The notes below the pieces were generated by a model that had not been told where the DNA came from, did no database searches, and worked only from the letters and a program-made list of their open reading frames with translations. This document shows, one piece after another, positions 4,612 to 41,579 of a stretch of 64,000 bases of DNA. The translations under genes were made by a program, and so were the position numbers. How positions within the stretch are numbered: the stretch's first letter is position 1; each line of letters starts with the position of its first letter. The DNA comes from Tritrichomonas foetus (Eukaryota > Parabasalia > Tritrichomonadida > Tritrichomonadidae): assembly GCA_001839685.1 (NCBI GenBank), contig MLAK01000698.1, forward strand, positions 1 through 64,000. Direction: 5' to 3'.

Positions 4612-6831
4612 ATGACAGAAGAATTTCCTTACGAAGTTCTTTTCAGATTTGTCTTTCCAGATTGGAAAGGCCCAATTCCAGAACTCCCACAAACCGGAAA
4701 ACCAGTTTCCAGAAATTTTCAAAATGTTGACAATCAAACTGATAGCTCCCAATGTGGCAACATAACCAATGATGGGAAAAATGAAAAAATTATCGTTGAT
4801 GGATTGGTAATCTGGGAAATTCGATCAAAGAAATTATCTAATATTAATTTTAACAAGCAGAATAACTCACGCCAGAATTCTATATCAGAAGTGTTCATAC
4901 ATCTTGAAGACAGGAGATGCCTCCACGATTCAGATTCGATTGTATATTCTGACACTTGCGTTCACTTTCTCCCAAATTCCACTTGGGTTTTTCAGCTTGA
5001 TCCAACATTCCACGAAGAGATTCCGTTTTTCGATCCGATTATCGCAAAATGGTTATTAAATACAGAATCATTGGTTAGATCCGATATTTTGCAGCCAATG
5101 AACATATTTTTCGAATCATTTGATATTAATGGACAAAAAAGAAGTGCATTAAGTGACACCCAGGCTCGCAGTGTATATTGTCTTTTCAGACCATTTAGTG
5201 AACTTTTTGAAATACTCAGAAATAATGATTCACTTTTTCAATGGCATCATGATGTTGAGATTCCTCATTCTCGAATCTTAGGCCGAATGCATGAAAAAAC
5301 ACTTGCAATTGATAGAGAAAAAATGGAAGAAGAAAAATCCAGACTCACAAAAGTTCTCAATGATTTAGAAAAAGAAATTTATTCTCTAGCTGGTGTTGAA
5401 TTCAACATTCTCTCACCATTTGAAGTTAGTGATATTCTTTTTAATAAGATGCATTTATCAGATTCTCCTGACCAAAATCCTAATAATGTAAACTTTTCAA
5501 ATGTCAGACAAAACAACTCTAATCATGAGAATATGAACACAAATCGAGAGGAAAAGGATAATTTTTCTTTTGTTAAAAACGGTTTGGGGGCAGAAAGTTG
5601 CTTTTCAATTGATTCACGTCACAGATTAACTCGTCATCGTGATTTTGCTCCAGCGAATTCAAACGTTCTTGAACATATTAACCATCCAATAGCCAAAAAG
5701 ATTCTTAAATATCGAAAGATTCAAAAAGTTATTTCAAATTGGCTCTCATTCACTGAATTTTGCGACGAAAACGGCTCCCTTCATCCAGATTTTCTTGTTT
5801 GTTCAACAGCAACCGGAAGAATCTCAACAAAATGTCCAAACCTGCAAAACATTCCATCTATGAATGAAAACGACCAACTATTTGGCCTAAATATTCGCTC
5901 AATGTTTCTTCCCTACCCATCAAAACTCTATTGCACTAATCAAAAATGGCCAAAAATAAATCACAATAGTCAAAAACACAACCATGATAATCAAAATCCA
6001 AACAATGAGAATCAAACTTTCAAAAATGATATTCAAAATTATGAAAATAACAATTACAATTTCGATAATGAAAATGATGGAAATGTAAATCATCAAGATA
6101 TTGCACATGAAGATTTTGAAAATGAAAAATTTGTTCTTATTTCATTAGACTATTCACAGCTTGAACTCAGAATTTTGACACATTTTTCAAAAGACCCAAG
6201 TTTGTTTGAACTTTGCTGTCAAACAGGCATTGACATTCACACTCATATTGCTAAAATCATTTTTTCTTCAGGATCAACAATTTCAATATCTTCAAAACAA
6301 CGTGAAGAAGCAAAGCAAGCCGTTTATGCAACCATTTATGGAAAAGGATGGTCAAAAGATGGATTTGAGAAAGGGGAAAAGTTAGAAGCTGTTTTGAATT
6401 CATTTCCAGGAATTCGGGAATTCGCCCTACAAACAACCGCGCTTGCTACAAATGAAGGATTAGTGAAAACATTGAGTGGGAAAATTCGGAGGCTTCCAAA
6501 CATTAAAAGTCAAGTATCAATTGAACGAAAACGTGATCAAAGAATTGCATTGAATACAAAAATTCAAGGAAGTGCTGCTGATTTTGTCAAATTTGCTTTA
6601 CTTCGAATCATGGAGAAATGCGGCGACAGAGTTGAACCACTTCTTCAAATTCATGATGAGTGGCTTTTTAGGACAAAATTGATTCCAGAAACTCAAGAAT
6701 TTGTGGAACTTTGTTGGGATCTGAAAAATGCAGCAGAGTGTCACCACGAAATTGGAATATCAGTTCCTATCCCATGCAAGATATCTTATGGGCGTTCTTA
6801 CGGAGAACTAACAGAACTTCTACAAGAATAA
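4612..6831 (+). CDS. family A DNA polymerase (Pol theta/nu-like)
   Basis: This 739-residue protein carries the family A polymerase motifs. Motif A is DYSQLELRIL, with the metal-binding Asp near 513. Motif B runs from Arg about 564 and Lys about 568 to YATIYGKG. A QGSAADFVK block follows, and motif C is IHDEW, with the Asp near 682. The N-terminal part contains a WVFQLDPTF-type block like that in the Pol theta/nu group. No helicase domain is present, so the architecture is closer to Pol nu than to full Pol theta. I see no intact 3'-5' exonuclease signature. It should work in DNA repair or translesion synthesis in the nucleus. An Asn/His-rich insert (about 440-505) separates the fingers/thumb side from motif A. 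An AAAAAGTT block lies about 80 bp upstream of the ATG. Confidence 0.9.
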   Translation: MTEEFPYEVLFRFVFPDWKGPIPELPQTGKPVSRNFQNVDNQTDSSQCGNITNDGKNEKIIVDGLVIWEIRSKKLSNINFNKQNNSRQNSISEVFIHLEDRRCLHDSDSIVYSDTCVHFLPNSTWVFQLDPTFHEEIPFFDPIIAKWLLNTESLVRSDILQPMNIFFESFDINGQKRSALSDTQARSVYCLFRPFSELFEILRNNDSLFQWHHDVEIPHSRILGRMHEKTLAIDREKMEEEKSRLTKVLNDLEKEIYSLAGVEFNILSPFEVSDILFNKMHLSDSPDQNPNNVNFSNVRQNNSNHENMNTNREEKDNFSFVKNGLGAESCFSIDSRHRLTRHRDFAPANSNVLEHINHPIAKKILKYRKIQKVISNWLSFTEFCDENGSLHPDFLVCSTATGRISTKCPNLQNIPSMNENDQLFGLNIRSMFLPYPSKLYCTNQKWPKINHNSQKHNHDNQNPNNENQTFKNDIQNYENNNYNFDNENDGNVNHQDIAHEDFENEKFVLISLDYSQLELRILTHFSKDPSLFELCCQTGIDIHTHIAKIIFSSGSTISISSKQREEAKQAVYATIYGKGWSKDGFEKGEKLEAVLNSFPGIREFALQTTALATNEGLVKTLSGKIRRLPNIKSQVSIERKRDQRIALNTKIQGSAADFVKFALLRIMEKCGDRVEPLLQIHDEWLFRTKLIPETQEFVELCWDLKNAAECHHEIGISVPIPCKISYGRSYGELTELLQE

Positions 6832-33416: not shown

Positions 33417-33709
33417 TTTGCATTAGTTGTAATATATTTTTATCAACTTGATGATAATTTGTTTGTAAAATAAACCTATATATATCATGCTATGTTATCC
33501 TTCTTGCTTTATCATTATATATATTTGGTAAAATCGAATTTTCGTTGGGTTCGAGTGATGAAGATATTTAGATATTGAATTTTCACTAATAATGAATATT
33601 TTCATAATGATGAATTATTTTGATTATCAATATTATGAATTATCAATCAATACTTATTAACAACTGTGGAAAAAAAAGGGAAAGTGAAAAACAGAAGGAT
33701 AAGGAAAAA
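33417..33709. other. intergenic between cyclase-like gene and retrotransposon
   Basis: AT-rich 3' flank of the cyclase-like gene. Its right part (A/G-rich on the plus strand, about 33669-33709) is the original downstream flank of the tRNA-Glu gene before the insertion. Confidence 0.5.
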
Positions 33710-33734
33710 GAAAAAATTCTCCGACGCGGGGAGT
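33710..33734 (-). repeat. target-site duplication, 3' copy (tRNA-Glu tail)
   Basis: On the minus strand the sequence runs ACTCCCCGCGTCGGAGAA, then six T and C. The first 15 bases are the T-loop to acceptor end of the tRNA-Glu gene at 40287-40357. The rest is its downstream flank with the poly-T terminator. The 5' copy at 40276-40301 is the same except for one extra A. Confidence 0.9.
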
Positions 33735-33849
33735 TTACTAATATCATAAGAGTAGGAGAAGGTAGAGGGCGTCATCATCATAAATCCACCTACCCGGAGA
33801 CGACTAAAAGTCAAAAAGAATAAAGTATTGTTATTTGATGTGTTTCACA
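33735..33849 (-). other. 3' UTR of the retrotransposon
   Basis: 115 nt between the ORF stop and the 3' target duplication. It contains no poly-A or short tandem tail. In R2-type elements the 3' UTR RNA is bound by the reverse transcriptase to start target-primed synthesis, so this segment is the likely recognition RNA. Confidence 0.6.
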
Positions 33850-36800
33850 TCACATGTCGTTTAGACCATCATATTCAGAAGCAGATGTCGAGAAATGAAT
33901 AAGTCCCTCCCCCAAGGGACTGACATCACCAACGACATCATGATTGGTCTGGTCTGTCGCAAACTGCGAGTCGGTAAAGAGAGTGTCATCCGGGTCAATC
34001 ACCTGGTCATCACTGGAGTTCACTTCATTATCACCCAAGTTTGCTGAGCCATTGGCATCAATTTCACCTGCATTCATCCGAATATTCCAATATATTAAAG
34101 CACTTCCTCGGATTGCAGCAAGTGAAATCTTCCTTGCAGTGGCCTCAGCAAGTCTTTTATTATTAAACAGCAATTTTCTGAGCGAAACGAGAGTTGAGGA
34201 AGGGACTGCGCCAAGTGAACTGACAACAATGACATAGAGATTGACTTTGATGTTAATAGCATCTTCAACAGCTTTTACTAAAGGTAAGTATTTTTGCAGC
34301 TTTTCCTCCATACGCAGCTTTAAAGTCGATTGGGGATCACAATCTGTTCTGTCATCCATCTGTCCATAAGGAACAGTGACCTCCACAATGTTCAACACGC
34401 CATTAGCAGGATTAACAAACCAAAGGTCTGGTCTGAGGTTTCGAACGCTAGGAGGAAGCTGTGGAGCACCCCTGAGTGAGATCGTAGTATTTTCATGAAA
34501 TACAAACTGAATTCGAGAAGCCTTCTTTAGAGATGCCATAACTTCTTGCACTACCTTGTTGTGTCGAATTGTATACTTCGATTTCTTTGGGTCACAATTA
34601 TTAAGTCTGTGAGCAAGAGTATCTTTAAGTTGTTTGTTGCATAGTCTGCACTCGGGAGTTTCATTATTATGTGAGATTACCTCACCAGTGGGGAGATTGT
34701 TACATCTGGCAGCAATAGTAAAAGATAACAAGTTGTCATTAACATTCGGAGGGCTCGGAGAGAAGTAAAAATTGCTAATCTTGTTGTTGTAGAGTGTAGT
34801 GAATGTATGGCCTTTCATCTTCATTGACACCAGCTTGGAGTGCCAGCGTTTGTAAAGGATCTGCACAATTTTTCGCATCACACATTTTGAATGTACAGTA
34901 AATTTCTCTTTGTTATCCGCGTTGGAAATAATTATATCTCCATCTTCACTAATATGCAGCTCTAAGCGAAGTTTTCGTGTTGCCTTAAAAGCTCTGATGA
35001 AAATACAATCTGTTCCGTTATGGGATTGATCCAGCGAGCCATCCGATTTAACCTTCCAGTCAAGGAACGTGGAAACATCGTCATCATCTGCCTTGGCAAT
35101 GTTGCGAAGCCTCTCCTCCTCTTCCAACCATATTGAGAAAAGTTGTTTTGTATGGTTATCAGTGGACGTTAAGACTTCACCGCACTGCTTAAGCCGAAAT
35201 GCGTAGAGACGTTCATGTAGAGATTGAATGCCAAGTCCCCCATCCCTCCAAGAAGTGTGAAAGAAGGGTATAGGAGTGGATAACTGTTTGATATGTTTGT
35301 TTACCAGAGAACGAATGAGTTTATCGAGTTTGATCATGTCATTCGCTCTAAATGAATTTGTCAGCATCTCGAAGTCCATAGAAGGAATGACAAATCTTTT
35401 CAGAGCGTCAACCTTTTGATTTATTCGAAGAGGCGACTTAAAAATTAAGTTGATCTTGTTGGTCAACTCCTCGACCAACCTGTCAGTATGTAAGAGGTTA
35501 ACGACATGTGATCTCGCAATCGGAGCGCCAAGGTATTCCTTGAACTCATTTATGTCAATGTGAGGAATCTCCTCATCATGAATTGAGAAAGGGAAAGCAG
35601 AACGTACTCTGCTCCGATTCTGTCGAATATAAGAAGTAATAGCGCATTTACTTGGATTAACACCAATACAAGAGAAGCCTGAGAACTCTGAAACAACATC
35701 CAGCAAGCGTTGTAATCCCTCTTCCGAATTACTGAGCAATACAATATCGTCTGCGTAAGCTTGGATGGCGGAATGGATTGTAGTAGTCGAGTTTGAGGTA
35801 ATAATTCCATATCTAATTGATTTCTTCTTAACATATCTGACCAATGGCTCAATTGCGATATCAAACAAGATCGGCGACAACGGACAACCTTGCTTGACAC
35901 CTCGCCGTATCCTGATAGGTTTTGTACGACCACGATGTGTAGAAATCACCGAATCCGTGCCCTTATAGAAATCCTTAATGATTGTAACAATCGCATTGTC
36001 GAATCCCATCTGTTGCATCGTCGAAAAGATTAGACGATGGTTGATTGAGCCGAAAGCATTTGAAAGATCAAGTGTAGCTGCAAGGAAATCTTGCCCTGAA
36101 CGATAACAATGCCTCATTAGTTCATTAACTGCAGCAGTGTGATTAAAGCATCCATTGACAAGATGCCTGAACCCTTTTTGCTCAGGTGAAATATATGTAC
36201 AGCGATCATTGAGCTTCTGGAAACATTGTGCGATATGGGACATGACAGTCCTGTAAATCACCGATGTGACAGTAATCGGTCTCCAATTATTAATCTTTGA
36301 AGAATCATTCTTCTTGAACAAGAGAATGGTCTTATTGTGCTTCCAGTTATCTGGTGTTCTCTTTGTACATTTAATTGCTTTCAACAAGATAAGTATGAAT
36401 TTCACAGCGTGTTTTGGTTCCAGAGAAAGAACAGCATTTGAAAGAGCATCCGATCCATGTGACGAGGCTGGATTTCTATCTTGAACAATCTTCATGATCT
36501 CCTTCTCATCAATAAAGTCGATCCAGAATTGTTTCATATCCTCCTCATCGATGATGCGATCCAGATGCCATACTGAGTCATGATCAGCTTCTTGAAATTG
36601 TGGAGAAAATGACCAATCGTTAGTGAAATGTTCTTCAACATTGCGAATGTCAATATCGCAAAATGGATATGCATCTGGCCAAACGTATCTTTGCATAGCT
36701 TTACGGGGACTATCATCGTAAAGCTCTTGACATCTTTTAATTTCATGCTTTGTGATCTTCTCACTTTTGAGGTTCATGAGGTGGTTAGCATAATCTGTGA

Positions 36801-39800
36801 GCCATTCAAGGGCCTTGGACCTCCACTCCTCCGATTGACTGACGAAACCTCTTAGTGTGTCAGGTGAATCACCGACTCCAAAGTGCCTCAAGATTTCATC
36901 ATTGCAACTGCCAGCAACATGAATGATAATGTCCTCAAGTCGACCGAGTGAATTTCGAGTAGTCTCATTATCGGTGTTAGCCTTCAACAAGGAATCGTAT
37001 TCCCGAATGAACTTAGTCAGTTTCACAGCTGAGTTGATGTCTTTGTTATGTTGTGCAGCGGTATTGAGAATCTTAATGTAGTCTTTAACAAGTCGTGGTT
37101 TCTTAGAAAGTGCTTCTTTCGGTTTGCCAATTGAATGTAAGGTATGTTTCGCTAAAATGTGTGTGGCTTTGAAGAGAGCACCTTCAAATTGGAACCAGCA
37201 ATCTTCCGTTTCATTGGAAGGAAAGTAACTTTCCAACAGCGGAATAATCTTGTTCTTGTACAAATCGCTTAACCCTTTCTTCACACGTGATCTAAACGCT
37301 TTGTTGAGATATGGAGTACTGATACCACTCTCTTCTAATATTTTATATTTCATCCTCCAACGAAGTGCCTTATTCCTTCTCTGTACCGCATCCCCAAGAC
37401 GCGATGAAGCATCCGGACCAGCGTCATTAGTCCTAAGCACATCGGATTCATCTTCATCAAAAGATGGAGCGATCCCAGTTACATTTGATGATCTAGCTGA
37501 ATCCGAGCGAAGGGAGACGTTATGAGTTCCTTCATTGTGATCTTCTTCACTACATATAGCTTCGTCATGTAACCTTTCACCATCATCCGATACATCAGTA
37601 CCCGGAGCGGAACGATGTTCTATCTCGCTTGCTTCTTGAGTTGCATCAATATCTTCATTGGTCACAATAAGATTCGATTGTATGACATAGGAGCCGAAGC
37701 CAGCCACCCTAGCATTGGAGTGGTCTGGGCGCGTGGACTGAGCGATATGAGAGGAAATTGCAGCCCTCGATGTCCGAAAGCAGTCGTTCTGTTTGCAACA
37801 GTATAATAATCTTTCTGCAGTAAAATTATGAATTCCAGGTGCATAATTATTGCTCCTGGCAATACCGATCAACTGCCCCCAAAACCATCCAAATTTGGTA
37901 GTCAGGGATGAGTTGCTGCGATGGACGTTGGTAATGTGGTTGCGTAAGCTCTCTCCGTCTTCGAACAATGCACCACAATCTCTCTCCATGCAAAAGAATG
38001 GGATGAGTTTGATGTTATTACATTTAAACACTAATTTCGTCTCAAGAATAGCGTTTAGAATGCTGATTTGTGGGTTGATGTTCCTATTGTCATGCTTCTC
38101 CAAAATATGTGTCTTCCTTTTAGCGGCAGTATTGACAGAGCAAAAGCAGTTTGCATGCGGACATGCAAATTTACCTCCAAAAACATAGTTTCTTGTTTTA
38201 TACATCCCCATAAGAAGGTCATCATCTTCATTGAGAGATGTGTCAATTATATCTTCTTCGATCCAAGTGTGAATTAGGCTGTTAAGCTCTTCAACAGAAT
38301 TCACAGAGCTGAGCTGTGAATAAATCTTCTGTTTGAGTTGGGTCTGGTTATCCTCTTGGGAGGGCTCACTATCATCAGGGGGTAAAGGATTAGGAGGAGA
38401 TCCATCCTCGCTTGACCCTGACGGGGAGTTGGGATTGGAACGAAATGAATTGTCATCTGAACCATGCACATTGTGGGAGACGATGATACCATCAGAAGTT
38501 TGTGTGGAATGCTGTTCATTATGTGAACAAATAGGAACTTGCGGATTAGACACATTAGTGACACAGGAACAGAGCATGTTCTCCTGGGGGGCATAGCTCA
38601 GCATGCAGTTGCTGTCACAGTTCACTTTGTTATTAAGATGTGGAGTAGATATTGGATGTTGAGATTGATTTAGAAGAGTCTGGACTGTTTGTGAAAGAGT
38701 AAAGAAACAGTTCTCAATAACACGATTTTGAAAGTTTAATTGGTTGAGGATGATGTCGTTAAACTCTGATCGTAGTCGAGTGCTTACATCATCCATAGCT
38801 TTATTACATGTTAGCCGATGATCTAGAACACTGTTGCACCCGACATGAGCAATATGGTTCTGCTGAGTAACCAAATGATTAAGATTGTGTTCCATCACCT
38901 GGGAAAACATATAATGCATTGATTGGATTTGTGCGTTTTGGTTGTCAATTATTGACAACATATGATTTATCTGTTGATTAAGTTCACATTTATTGCTTTC
39001 ATTCATTTGCTGATTTTGGTAAAGAAGTAAAAGCATTAACATGTTCTGTTGATCATAACATTGTAGTTTCTGTTGAAATTCATCATGAATCTTTTGAAGA
39101 GCACTGTTTGCAGAAGTATTTCGATTATGTGGAAAAGGATTGAGTGAATCATCCTCATCAAGAGGAAACTCGACTATAGGTAATGTTCCAGAAGTTGGGT
39201 GAATATCCTCATTCTTAATCTCCGGAGAATCGTCAACTGGAGTATTTGAACTAGTCACTGAACTGATATTGTTCGAAGTAGTATTGACTGGAACGATATC
39301 ATCATTCGAATTATCATTAGTCTCTTCAATGATTTTAGATGTAACAGTTTGTGATGAATTAGTAAAATCTATTGATAAAATTTGTTTATCTTTACAAAAT
39401 GAATTTGAATTATTAATATTATTATTGATTTCAGAATTTTCAATATCATTTGTATTAAAATCTGTAACATAAATAGACCTACTTGGATTACAGTTCTCTA
39501 TGGGGGGAAGAGAAGTAGAATTTGTAGGTGGTAAAAAAACATTAAATGAAATATCTTTCTGGTTGTCACTATTCTCTAAGTCATCATGTGTAGCATCATT
39601 TGAGATATTAAGGAGTCGAGAAGTAATGTCTAGTGAGCATAGACCAGAGGAACAGGAATCATCATTCGTGAATATCATATCATTAGGGAGATCTGAGTCA
39701 AATTGAGAGACAAAACTATCCGTAATATTGAATGCAATTATGGCCGCACCGCTATCTGATTCAGCTTCATCAGTACTATCTAAACCCATATCTTTTTCGT

Positions 39801-40251
39801 CCAAAAATAAGAGACCATCGTAATTAATATCATCGATATCGCAGTCTCTTAAGAAAAGCCCAGTATCTCTGTTAATTTTAAAGTTCCCGGCCCAATGTTG
39901 AATCTCGAGATATATATCAGTGGGTGAAAGTCGCGGATTTTCGATGATATTGTACTCCATGTTGTTGAAAATTCGGTCTTGGAAGTAATTTGGCGGACTT
40001 AGAAGGCTGTCGGACGATTGCGAATCTGCATCAACTGAAAAACTGGGAAGCGAATGTAGTTTAGTTTGAACGCTCGGTGTAATAGATAGATTAGGTGACA
40101 GCGAGTCTGAGAATAGTTGTATTTGTTCTGAAGTGTGAGATGTCTCGTATGATATTGGAGATTCGATTGAAAAAATATCACGAAATTCGGTGAGAATAGC
40201 ATCATTAGAAAGCTTGTCTGGAGTAGATTCAGAATATGTAGGTATATCCAT
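33850..40251 (-). CDS. retrotransposon polyprotein: C2H2 fingers, reverse transcriptase, RLE endonuclease
   Basis: The first ATG is at 40251 (2133 residues); the frame extends six codons upstream, from a TTG. Residues 1 to about 640 are Asn/Ser/Asp-rich with a Cys-rich patch near 560-600 and no domain I recognise. Three zinc fingers follow: CPHANC (about 695), CMERDC (about 755) and CCKQNDC (about 820). The reverse transcriptase spans about 1230-1560, with GVKQGCPLSP and the catalytic YADD near 1500. Near 1867 comes the CCHC motif CRLCNKQLKDTLAHRLNNC, then the endonuclease core RPDLWFV (about 1940) and EVTVPY (about 1958). R2 proteins are usually about half this length. No ULP1-type protease, as in NeSL, was seen. 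The protein should nick the tRNA gene and prime reverse transcription there. Confidence 0.93.
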   Translation of the reverse strand: MDIPTYSESTPDKLSNDAILTEFRDIFSIESPISYETSHTSEQIQLFSDSLSPNLSITPSVQTKLHSLPSFSVDADSQSSDSLLSPPNYFQDRIFNNMEYNIIENPRLSPTDIYLEIQHWAGNFKINRDTGLFLRDCDIDDINYDGLLFLDEKDMGLDSTDEAESDSGAAIIAFNITDSFVSQFDSDLPNDMIFTNDDSCSSGLCSLDITSRLLNISNDATHDDLENSDNQKDISFNVFLPPTNSTSLPPIENCNPSRSIYVTDFNTNDIENSEINNNINNSNSFCKDKQILSIDFTNSSQTVTSKIIEETNDNSNDDIVPVNTTSNNISSVTSSNTPVDDSPEIKNEDIHPTSGTLPIVEFPLDEDDSLNPFPHNRNTSANSALQKIHDEFQQKLQCYDQQNMLMLLLLYQNQQMNESNKCELNQQINHMLSIIDNQNAQIQSMHYMFSQVMEHNLNHLVTQQNHIAHVGCNSVLDHRLTCNKAMDDVSTRLRSEFNDIILNQLNFQNRVIENCFFTLSQTVQTLLNQSQHPISTPHLNNKVNCDSNCMLSYAPQENMLCSCVTNVSNPQVPICSHNEQHSTQTSDGIIVSHNVHGSDDNSFRSNPNSPSGSSEDGSPPNPLPPDDSEPSQEDNQTQLKQKIYSQLSSVNSVEELNSLIHTWIEEDIIDTSLNEDDDLLMGMYKTRNYVFGGKFACPHANCFCSVNTAAKRKTHILEKHDNRNINPQISILNAILETKLVFKCNNIKLIPFFCMERDCGALFEDGESLRNHITNVHRSNSSLTTKFGWFWGQLIGIARSNNYAPGIHNFTAERLLYCCKQNDCFRTSRAAISSHIAQSTRPDHSNARVAGFGSYVIQSNLIVTNEDIDATQEASEIEHRSAPGTDVSDDGERLHDEAICSEEDHNEGTHNVSLRSDSARSSNVTGIAPSFDEDESDVLRTNDAGPDASSRLGDAVQRRNKALRWRMKYKILEESGISTPYLNKAFRSRVKKGLSDLYKNKIIPLLESYFPSNETEDCWFQFEGALFKATHILAKHTLHSIGKPKEALSKKPRLVKDYIKILNTAAQHNKDINSAVKLTKFIREYDSLLKANTDNETTRNSLGRLEDIIIHVAGSCNDEILRHFGVGDSPDTLRGFVSQSEEWRSKALEWLTDYANHLMNLKSEKITKHEIKRCQELYDDSPRKAMQRYVWPDAYPFCDIDIRNVEEHFTNDWSFSPQFQEADHDSVWHLDRIIDEEDMKQFWIDFIDEKEIMKIVQDRNPASSHGSDALSNAVLSLEPKHAVKFILILLKAIKCTKRTPDNWKHNKTILLFKKNDSSKINNWRPITVTSVIYRTVMSHIAQCFQKLNDRCTYISPEQKGFRHLVNGCFNHTAAVNELMRHCYRSGQDFLAATLDLSNAFGSINHRLIFSTMQQMGFDNAIVTIIKDFYKGTDSVISTHRGRTKPIRIRRGVKQGCPLSPILFDIAIEPLVRYVKKKSIRYGIITSNSTTTIHSAIQAYADDIVLLSNSEEGLQRLLDVVSEFSGFSCIGVNPSKCAITSYIRQNRSRVRSAFPFSIHDEEIPHIDINEFKEYLGAPIARSHVVNLLHTDRLVEELTNKINLIFKSPLRINQKVDALKRFVIPSMDFEMLTNSFRANDMIKLDKLIRSLVNKHIKQLSTPIPFFHTSWRDGGLGIQSLHERLYAFRLKQCGEVLTSTDNHTKQLFSIWLEEEERLRNIAKADDDDVSTFLDWKVKSDGSLDQSHNGTDCIFIRAFKATRKLRLELHISEDGDIIISNADNKEKFTVHSKCVMRKIVQILYKRWHSKLVSMKMKGHTFTTLYNNKISNFYFSPSPPNVNDNLLSFTIAARCNNLPTGEVISHNNETPECRLCNKQLKDTLAHRLNNCDPKKSKYTIRHNKVVQEVMASLKKASRIQFVFHENTTISLRGAPQLPPSVRNLRPDLWFVNPANGVLNIVEVTVPYGQMDDRTDCDPQSTLKLRMEEKLQKYLPLVKAVEDAINIKVNLYVIVVSSLGAVPSSTLVSLRKLLFNNKRLAEATARKISLAAIRGSALIYWNIRMNAGEIDANGSANLGDNEVNSSDDQVIDPDDTLFTDSQFATDQTNHDVVGDVSPLGEGLIHFSTSASEYDGLNDM

Positions 40252-40275
40252 GTAAAAAGGCTCCTGCAAAAAAAC

Positions 40276-40301
40276 GAAAAAATTTCTCCGACGCGGGGAG
40301 T
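40276..40301 (-). repeat. target-site duplication, 5' copy (overlaps tRNA 3' end)
   Basis: The minus strand reads ACTCCCCGCGTCGGAGAAA, then six T and C. It overlaps the last 15 bases of the tRNA gene and supplies its poly-T terminator. Compared with the 33710-33734 copy it has one additional A before the T-run. It marks the junction with the 5' end of the retrotransposon. Confidence 0.88.
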
Positions 40302-40357
40302 CGAACCCCGCTCCCGTGGATGAAAACCACGTATCCTAACCGATGAACGACGTCGGA
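40287..40357 (-). tRNA. tRNA-Glu (anticodon UUC)
   Basis: The minus strand from 40357 folds as a 71-nt tRNA. The acceptor stem TCCGACG pairs with CGTCGGA. The D-arm contains ATCGGTTAGGAT, and the anticodon stem CGTGG/CCACG encloses the loop TTTTCAT, giving anticodon TTC. The T-arm is CGGGG-TTCGACT-CCCCG. There is no intron and no encoded CCA. The B box GGTTCGACTCC and A box are intact for RNA polymerase III. A six-T terminator follows within 10 bp. The gene is the target of the retrotransposon directly downstream, and its last 15 bases are repeated at 33720-33734. Confidence 0.96.
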
Positions 40358-40568
40358 TTTCGAAAGGTTAAACATTTGTTATAACCTGAGACAAAGATAA
40401 ATTGGTTGTCTGGTTACTTGGTCAAAGACAAAATCATCATTCAAATTTTAGAACTCAATTATTAATTCAAATATTTTCTGCACATCAAATGACTTATTTG
40501 AAAAGTTTATTTCTTAATTGAATGTATATCAATTTTCTGAACAAAATTTGATTCTTTTAATCATTCAT

Positions 40569-41579
40569 ATGCCACGACAGTCTATTTTTACTATCACAGA
40601 AACACCCCAGTACTGGGATTTCTTAAGTGCAGAAGACCAAAATAAGTACCACCATTTGAAGAAACAATTCACTCATCCAAAATATAAAAATCGAAGAAAC
40701 AAAAGCAATGATGTTTTTAAGGACATAATCAAAAATATCAAACGCTTTGTGATGAGAAATGATGAAAATGACGTTATTCGATCTTTGGTATGTGGAATTA
40801 TTTGGATTGATGATGTCATTGTGATAAACACACATCAGCTTCGAATTTTGATTGATAAATGCAAATCTTCCATTAATGGATCTTTTCAAGCAATTGGATA
40901 TGAAGCAATTCCGCCTGCTTCTGATTCAGCATGCGAACTTGTAAGCATGTATCCTTTCATGAAAAATAACTATGGCGAACTTCGACAGTGGACATCAAGA
41001 CAACTCATTCGTGAAAGCAAAAATCCACAAATTTCCAATGTGAATGACAAAAATAGTTCAACTACTGAGGGAAATGTAGAAGGTAATTCTAACAACAGCA
41101 TAAATGGAACCAATACTGATAATGTCACTAAAATCATTTTAAATGATGGTGAGATCATTCCTCCTCAGAGAAATGATCAAAATATAAATGTTATTCAGGA
41201 CAATTCAAAGAAAACATTAAAATCTAATGGAAATAATGAAATATCAATTGTTAGACAAGAATCTTCAATTCCAAGAAAACATGATAATGGGCGAGAAACT
41301 ATCTTATTGGCGACACTAATTGATTCACATGAAGAAACCATCATTACTTCACCACCTTTTATTGATGATTTTATCAATACTGGATTTTCAACAAGAGAAA
41401 ATGAGGATTATAAATTTATAAACACTCTAAACATGGATGATTTGGTATCAATATCATCACTAAATGTCGACAAAGATCCTCTGTCTCTATTCCCGCGGCA
41501 TGAATTGAATATTCCTTCGTATTTCTCTGAATTTCGTGGTGATATTTTGTTTATTGATGATATATTTTGGAAAGAGTGA
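40569..41579 (+). CDS. IBP39-type initiator-binding transcription factor
   Basis: From ATG 40569 (MPRQSIFTIT) the protein has 336 residues; the frame extends 17 codons back from a TTG. Residues about 10-125 match the initiator-binding domain of IBP39, including YWDFLSAEDQNKYHHLKK and INTHQLRILIDKCKSSINGS. IBP39 binds the initiator TCA+1Py(T/A) at transcription starts in trichomonads and contacts the RNA polymerase II C-terminal domain through a separate C-terminal domain. Here the remaining about 200 residues are Asn/Ser-rich and end in a short acidic, hydrophobic segment (SEFRGDILFIDDIFW), so the effector part differs and the protein may be a specialised paralogue. Confidence 0.88.
   Translation: MPRQSIFTITETPQYWDFLSAEDQNKYHHLKKQFTHPKYKNRRNKSNDVFKDIIKNIKRFVMRNDENDVIRSLVCGIIWIDDVIVINTHQLRILIDKCKSSINGSFQAIGYEAIPPASDSACELVSMYPFMKNNYGELRQWTSRQLIRESKNPQISNVNDKNSSTTEGNVEGNSNNSINGTNTDNVTKIILNDGEIIPPQRNDQNINVIQDNSKKTLKSNGNNEISIVRQESSIPRKHDNGRETILLATLIDSHEETIITSPPFIDDFINTGFSTRENEDYKFINTLNMDDLVSISSLNVDKDPLSLFPRHELNIPSYFSEFRGDILFIDDIFWKE

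Follow-up and report, generated by a model that had tools for sequence, protein, structure and literature searches.

Non-long terminal repeat (non-LTR) retrotransposons that carry a restriction-like endonuclease (RLE) and are specific for one tRNA gene are already known as a kind. According to the sections of Kojima and Jurka (2015, PMC4640811) covered here, NeSL-1_TV is specific for tRNA-Pro, LIN25_SM of planaria for tRNA-Glu and LIN15_SM for tRNA-Arg, and in this respect these elements are like the one studied here. Our subject is a window of 64,000 nucleotides from Tritrichomonas foetus (contig MLAK01000698.1, positions 1 to 64,000; G+C content 31.7%), in which an initial annotation, made from the sequence alone, had reported a retrotransposon next to a tRNA-Glu(UUC) gene. 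This element is real. It lies directly 3′ of the only tRNA gene that ARAGORN finds in the window and on the same strand. NeSL-1_TV, judging by its Repbase-style name, presumably comes from Trichomonas vaginalis. The annotation had listed ribosomal DNA (rDNA), spliced-leader and small nuclear RNA (snRNA) genes as the known targets of such elements, a list that the 2015 report makes too narrow.

Our reading, to which we assign a probability of about 0.65, is that this is a recently active, target-specific RLE non-LTR retrotransposon from a clade that uses tRNA genes, and that its insertion would involve a nick in the T-loop, a duplication of the tRNA tail only and a terminator carried by the element itself.

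Copies at tRNA-Glu genes

The genome of the window (63.7 Mb in 1,064 contigs, to which the C-labels below refer) was searched with the 3′ end of the element, and eight copies of this end were found. In all eight, the element ends in ...ATTAGTAA and is followed by the tRNA-Glu tail ACTCCCCGCGTCGGAG and then by DNA that differs from copy to copy. The 3′ junction therefore lies between G57 and A58 of the T-loop (TTCG/ACTCC) in eight of eight copies, exactly where the annotation had placed it, and the tRNA-Glu(UUC) target and the tRNA tail expected behind other copies of the 3′ untranslated region (UTR) hold equally in all of them. The 16-mer ACTCCCCGCGTCGGAG occurs 21 times in the genome, in 13 tRNA-Glu(UUC) genes, all called by ARAGORN, and at the eight element 3′ ends, whereas the reversed 16-mer is absent from the 63.7 Mb. 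Seven of the 13 genes are occupied, six by elements with both ends and one by an element cut by a contig end (C16). Four are empty (C39, C292, C928 and C71), and two lie at contig ends (C504 and C156). The last two are 99.85% alike over 1,341 bp upstream, and both contigs end just behind the tRNA gene, where an element may begin.

We compared the 1.4-kb flanks of 17 tRNA-Glu genes and the eight element 3′ sides. Apart from C504 and C156 and a match of 39 bp that links two empty loci, the flanks are unrelated, and the occupied loci are therefore independent insertions. Empty tRNA-Glu genes thus exist, as the annotation had supposed, but no empty allele of the window locus or of any other occupied locus was found in this comparison. 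The six two-ended copies differ by 0 to 3 substitutions over 6,052 to 6,551 compared positions (99.95–100% identical), which points to very recent movement of the family or to copies made alike by the assembly. Three of them keep an open reading frame through residue 2133 (C308, and C170 and C681 with a few N); the frame contains a gap of N in C756 and is broken by a 124-bp deletion in C314 and by a 482-bp tandem duplication in C315.

The two sides of these copies show how far the duplication extends. All seven readable 5′ sides carry the identical sequence AAATTTTTTCGTTTTTTT, whatever the trailer of the locus, and after tRNA nt 73 all seven continue as AAATTTTTTCGTTTTTTTGCAGGAGCC. The trailers, readable behind all eight element 3′ ends, vary by locus, for example GATTTTTT in C681, AATTCTTT in C315 and AATCTTTT in C170. 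Because the seven heads are identical while the trailers differ, the T-tract belongs to the element. The annotation had proposed a staggered cut beyond the terminator and a 25/26-bp duplication that rebuilds the T-tract. A repeat of this length is literally present in the window, but the two sides match for only 2 nt past nt 73 there, and the agreement past nt 73 in the six two-ended copies is 0, 2, 2, 2, 8 and 9 nt (0–2 nt in C681, C315, C170 and C308; 8 and 9 nt in C314 and C756). From these junctions the target duplication appears to be confined to the tRNA tail, about 16 bp, and a cut beyond the terminator is not supported. The tRNA sequence itself is left whole, as had been claimed, with a complete tRNA-Glu upstream of the element. 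T-tracts are what terminators of RNA polymerase III (Pol III) look like, and the T6 and T7 tracts of the head probably end the tRNA transcript; the occupied tRNA would presumably still work.

Four tRNA-Glu(CUC) genes have the same T-arm, GGGGTTCGACTCCCC, and none is occupied, compared with 7 of 11 UUC genes when the two undecided genes at contig ends are left out (P = 0.077). This is a hint of a preference for tRNA-Glu(UUC) over tRNA-Glu(CUC), and it makes doubtful that the T-arm alone is recognised, as the annotation had it.

Related families at other tRNA genes

A protein search of the genome, in which 22 of 131 candidates were scored so that all counts are lower bounds, placed this or a related element on at least 18 contigs. 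A second family, with 39–44% identity to the window element, is found on five contigs. Four of its 3′ ends read ...AATAAACAA followed by TCCCTGCGGGACCA, the tail of tRNA-Ile(GAU); C74 stops before its 3′ end and adds no 3′ count. Four 5′ sides of this family lie behind a whole tRNA-Ile and share one head, TGTTTTTTTC (with T8 in C74). The common head together with differing 3′ trailers (four heads, four trailers) indicates an element-borne T-tract here too. Two side observations concern tRNA-Ile. In C778 (L095) a tRNA-Ile gene lacks its middle part, the anticodon arm, and is not called by ARAGORN, with T-arm, acceptor tail and T-run intact. In C235 (L088, L117) a tRNA-Ile is followed by a diverged relic of an element head (79.6% over 54 bp).

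Further 3′ ends lie in the tails of tRNA-Tyr (C508 and C857), tRNA-Asp (C284), tRNA-Thr (C121) and tRNA-Cys (C582). These tails were read first, and the genome was then searched for the T-arm plus tail, which matched 8 Tyr, 16 Asp, 6 Thr and 4 Cys genes, of which 5, 2, 2 and 3 were checked. ARAGORN named all the checked Asp, Thr and Cys genes; among the five Tyr-type genes it named one as Tyr, and the remaining four, each with an intron-like insert, were reported as tRNA-???. In total, 17 of the 18 3′ ends found independently of their tail join the tail of a tRNA gene present elsewhere in the genome (8 Glu, 4 Ile, 2 Tyr and 1 each of Asp, Thr and Cys), C751 being the exception; an Ile-type 3′ end at C581:109580, found via the tail pattern itself, is left out of this count. 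Each of the 14 5′ sides follows a tRNA gene (7 Glu, 4 Ile, 2 Tyr and 1 Cys), although they were located via the tRNA sequence, so that the whole tRNA upstream is no independent count. The 5′ sides in C1029, C965, C284 and C121 are apparently cut by contig ends. Each family sits on one isotype in the copies read. A short interspersed element-like, tRNA-derived head is ruled out by the tRNA 5′ flanks, which are locus-specific in the Glu copies, and by the introns of the two occupied tRNA-Tyr genes, which differ from each other as they do in unoccupied ones.

Elements were also found stacked. Behind the tail of the C582 element are 297 bp identical to its own 5′ end. In C508, the 68 bp after the tail match the element's 5′ end at 88%, and at C581:109570 the 445 bp after the tail are 88.5% identical to the Ile element at its 5′ end. 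Evidently, a whole tRNA can be hit again. C581 (L082, L087) further holds an array of Ile-type elements in which tails are directly followed by further heads, and a degenerate tRNA-like fragment, GAGTTCGAATCTCTGTGAGAACATG, stands before one head of this array.

A reverse transcriptase (RT) tree, built by a quick method, comprised 56 rows: the window element, six further copies of the genome, 44 database relatives, two loci from metagenome-assembled genomes (MAGs) and three R2 proteins. The Glu, Ile, two Tyr, Asp, Cys and C751 elements fall in one clade of 22 rows with a support of 100 in the Shimodaira–Hasegawa-like approximate likelihood ratio test (SH-aLRT); the Thr element (C121) has too little RT and was left out. 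This clade is separate from R2 and from the group with P0037, a NeSL-like protein that bears an Ulp1 domain and falls outside on a long branch, in a tree that holds no named NeSL sequence. In P0005 and P0008, two relatives from the 22-row clade, the protein also includes a ubiquitin hydrolase domain (PF00443). Relatives also occur on contigs binned as bacterial, L072–L074 in a MAG labelled Lachnospiraceae and L075 in a Rickettsiales MAG, which probably represent protist contamination of the MAGs. L072, on a mis-binned contig, has a tRNA-like tail that was matched to no tRNA gene here (0 hits, up to 2 mismatches allowed). In viral contigs, a search with the single protein gave no relatives, and an alignment search gave 57 pattern stretches, none confirmed.

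The element protein and its class

The frame on the minus strand is open over 33850–40269, with 2,139 codons from the first TTG and 2,133 amino acids from the ATG at 40251. RVT_1 (residues 1319–1546) is the only Pfam match of the window protein, and among solved structures R2 retrotransposon proteins come closest; a profile of 11 proteins matches R2 structures at E 2e-102. A second, weak aligned stretch to R2Tg covers the CCHC and endonuclease part (i-Evalue 0.039). In an alignment of the window protein with 10 of the 44 database relatives, the Cys/His positions of two finger-like motifs that precede the RT, as well as YADD, CCHC and PD...E, are invariant or nearly so, with C1874, C1877, H1887, C1892, P1947, D1948 and E1963 unchanged in all 11 proteins. 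A third finger-like motif is less conserved, and Pfam calls none of the CCHC, endonuclease and finger motifs of the window protein. The annotation's R2/NeSL-like element with an RLE is borne out by these matches, as are its intact ORF of 2133 codons, RT and endonuclease; of its zinc fingers, two are well conserved and the third is weak. An LTR retrotransposon or a DNA transposon is ruled out by the protein domains.

Table 1. Features of the tRNA-Glu(UUC) element and its target in the window.
Feature	Position	Strand	Basis or remark
Whole element	33735..40285	-	6,551 bp; from comparison of six copies with both ends
Target gene, intact tRNA-Glu(UUC)	40286..40357	-	ARAGORN; Rfam RF00005 tRNA, 49.5 bits
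tRNA nt 58-73 (ACTCCCCGCGTCGGAG), part apparently duplicated on insertion	40286..40301	-	exact copy at 33719-33734; junction point of 8/8 element 3′ ends
Element head / 5′ UTR with T6 and T7 tracts, putative replacement terminator	40252..40285	-	same behind 7/7 occupied tRNA-Glu genes although 3′ trailers differ
CCTTTTT, like m5 core promoter of Trichomonas vaginalis (tentative)	40254..40260	-	motif as given in the part of PMC7370421 covered here
ORF, 2,133 aa	33850..40251	-	open frame
Three finger-like Cys/His motifs (residues about 703-726, 760-783, 825-850)	37720..38163	-	alignment of 11 proteins; third weakly conserved; none called by Pfam
Reverse transcriptase (RVT_1, YADD)	35632..36315	-	Pfam E 6.9e-32; R2 proteins in PDB E 6.7e-46
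CCHC knuckle and restriction-like endonuclease (RPD...E...K)	34288..34650	-	invariant columns; second aligned stretch to R2Tg
3′ UTR, ending ...ATTAGTAA, without poly(A) run	33735..33849	-	8 genome copies
Tail copy (ACTCCCCGCGTCGGAG) behind element	33719..33734	-	exact copy of 40286-40301
Original trailer of the tRNA locus (AATTTTTTCTTTTTCC...)	33700..33718	-	differs from element head

The element shares the features of the CRE/R2/R4/NeSL/HERO group: a non-LTR RT, a C-terminal CCHC motif with a PD-(D/E)xK-type endonuclease, and a fixed target with a precise 3′ junction (8/8). The RLE assignment of the annotation thus agrees with the protein, and the RT belongs to a clade of its own. It is not R2, as all eight 3′ ends lie in tRNA-Glu instead of 28S rDNA and the RT falls outside R2. 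No Ulp1-type protease (PF02902) was found by Pfam in the window protein; this protease is present in nematode NeSL, though not in every NeSL member. Nor does Pfam find an apurinic-type endonuclease (PF03372) there, and with the junction inside the tRNA this sets the element apart from Dictyostelium TRE. The m5-like CCTTT lies 9 nt upstream of the element ATG, and of the other window ORFs, 18 could be given a start ATG (starts being guessed), none of them with CCTTT within 20 nt. Next to the tRNA, the gene at 40518–41579 (+) encodes an IBD domain (PF10416, E 4.4e-44), the domain of the Trichomonas initiator-binding protein. Taken with the G+C content of 31.7% and the long ORFs of the window, it makes a parabasalid the most likely host, in agreement with the protist host proposed in the annotation.

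Insertion model, alternatives and known systems

From these junctions we infer the following course. The element protein would bind one tRNA gene and nick the strand opposite the tRNA sequence at G57/A58 in the T-loop, in the window copy between 40301 and 40302, and the 3′ end of the element RNA would be reverse-transcribed from this nick (target-primed reverse transcription). The other strand would be cut some 16 bp further along, at the tRNA 3′ end or close to it (near nt 73), and fill-in would duplicate the tRNA tail only, leaving a complete tRNA sequence before the element. The element's own first bases, its T-tracts, may then act as terminator of the restored tRNA, the displaced tail and the original T-tract staying behind the element. 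The whole tRNA could be hit again, giving tandem elements.

Several observations weigh against this model, including the way in which the 5′ sides were located. The 3′ tail of C751 matched no tRNA gene searched for (0 matches), and for neither C581 nor C751 could a 5′ side be located behind a tRNA. The shared tail starts at A58 in the Glu, Tyr, Asp, Thr and Cys families, whereas that of the Ile family starts two bases later, at T60. Eleven of the 13 tRNA-Glu(UUC) genes are identical to the window copy, and the substitutions, one in C756 and two in C170, fall in two of the seven occupied genes compared with none of the six others. The 3′ UTR folds no better than its shuffles (z 0.33; 123 of 200 shuffles at least as stable), and the near-identity of the copies could be partly the assembler's work.

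One alternative keeps the element and changes the origin of the upstream tail. A read-through tRNA–element RNA would serve as template and anneal to the upstream half of the target, as proposed for the 28S co-transcripts of R2, instead of the target being duplicated; in a sub-version, trimming by RNase Z after nt 73 would set the element 5′ end and replace the ribozyme of R2. RNase Z cuts tRNA precursors after nt 73, and the element head begins at nt 74 in both the Glu and the Ile families. Since RNA has to be the source of the head, the template begins no further downstream than nt 74, and upstream of the head only the tRNA is common to the loci; a transcription start at the m5-like CCTTT would leave the head uncopied, and the template must therefore begin further upstream. 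R2 has both a ribozyme and a 28S co-transcript (PMC3414825, as far as covered here), and the stretches searched near the 5′ ends of the present elements gave no ribozyme match at E ≤ 5. However, the differing introns of the two occupied tRNA-Tyr genes mean that the anticodon half, at least, comes from the host, and the T-tract should stop Pol III, so that a read-through transcript would need RNA polymerase II. We consider this alternative rather unlikely, if worth keeping in mind. The second cut beyond the terminator, with a 25/26-bp duplication rebuilding the T-tract, could account for the sides of the window copy, alike over 25/26 bp, and for the 8 and 9 nt in C314 and C756; it is very improbable given the 0–2 nt in the four other copies and the seven identical heads with unlike trailers, a pattern repeated in the Ile family.

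An assembly artefact, in which collapsed repeats make copies and 5′ heads look identical, would fit the N runs, the 124-bp deletion and the 482-bp tandem duplication, and the several contigs that end at elements. It is hard to reconcile with flanks that are unrelated at each locus, with locus-specific tRNA substitutions preserved some 70 nt or less from the head and with diverged families of the same layout, and we give it very little credence. Landing near tRNA genes via Pol III factors, in the manner of Dictyostelium TRE, would explain why all targets are tRNA genes. We regard it as scarcely credible for an element with exact junctions inside the gene, a restriction-like in place of an apurinic endonuclease and one isotype per family. 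The exact junctions likewise rule out random insertion near tRNA genes.

Beyond the insertion model with tail-only duplication, we tentatively entertain a wider proposal, possible though less than probable: the clade would cut at least six tRNA isotypes in their Pol III B box, at nearly one structural point, and repair each gene, the tail by duplication or from its own RNA and the terminator from its head. Host tRNA 3′ processing at nt 73 would set the 5′ end of the element RNA, the tRNA replacing the ribozyme of R2, and the tRNA would stay a target on which elements stack. If selfish DNA severs an internal promoter that is essential and highly conserved but keeps the gene complete, it would illustrate low-harm targeting clearly, and a terminator brought by the element would be a simple adaptation open to bench tests. 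With six or more natural tRNA specificities at a single homologous site, the clade may also help to show how proteins of this type recognise their target, a question relevant to the use of R2-type proteins for gene insertion. In the literature searched, as far as its texts were covered, with supplements and most subscription papers outside the search, we found neither the T-loop position nor the element-borne terminator nor several tRNA specificities in one lineage described.

Among known systems, Dictyostelium TRE are non-LTR elements that, like the window element, use tRNA genes as a low-harm niche, although their insertions lie some way from the tRNA gene and their endonuclease is of the apurinic type. 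R2 has a similar RT and endonuclease, a precise 3′ junction and a single ORF; it differs in its 28S rDNA target and its RT clade, and the window element shows no ribozyme match at its 5′ end. Dada elements also insert inside specific tRNA genes, but they are DNA transposons whose sites lie around the anticodon and A box (PMC8869645, in the part covered). Utopia targets U2 snRNA genes and not tRNA genes, and its authors, who in sections 5–7 of their paper do not mention an element-borne terminator, explain its missing 5′ fragment by deletion; it is nevertheless like the window element in having a target fragment downstream, intact U2 genes upstream in Phytophthora, tandems, and N-terminal zinc fingers together with an RLE (PMC4640811).

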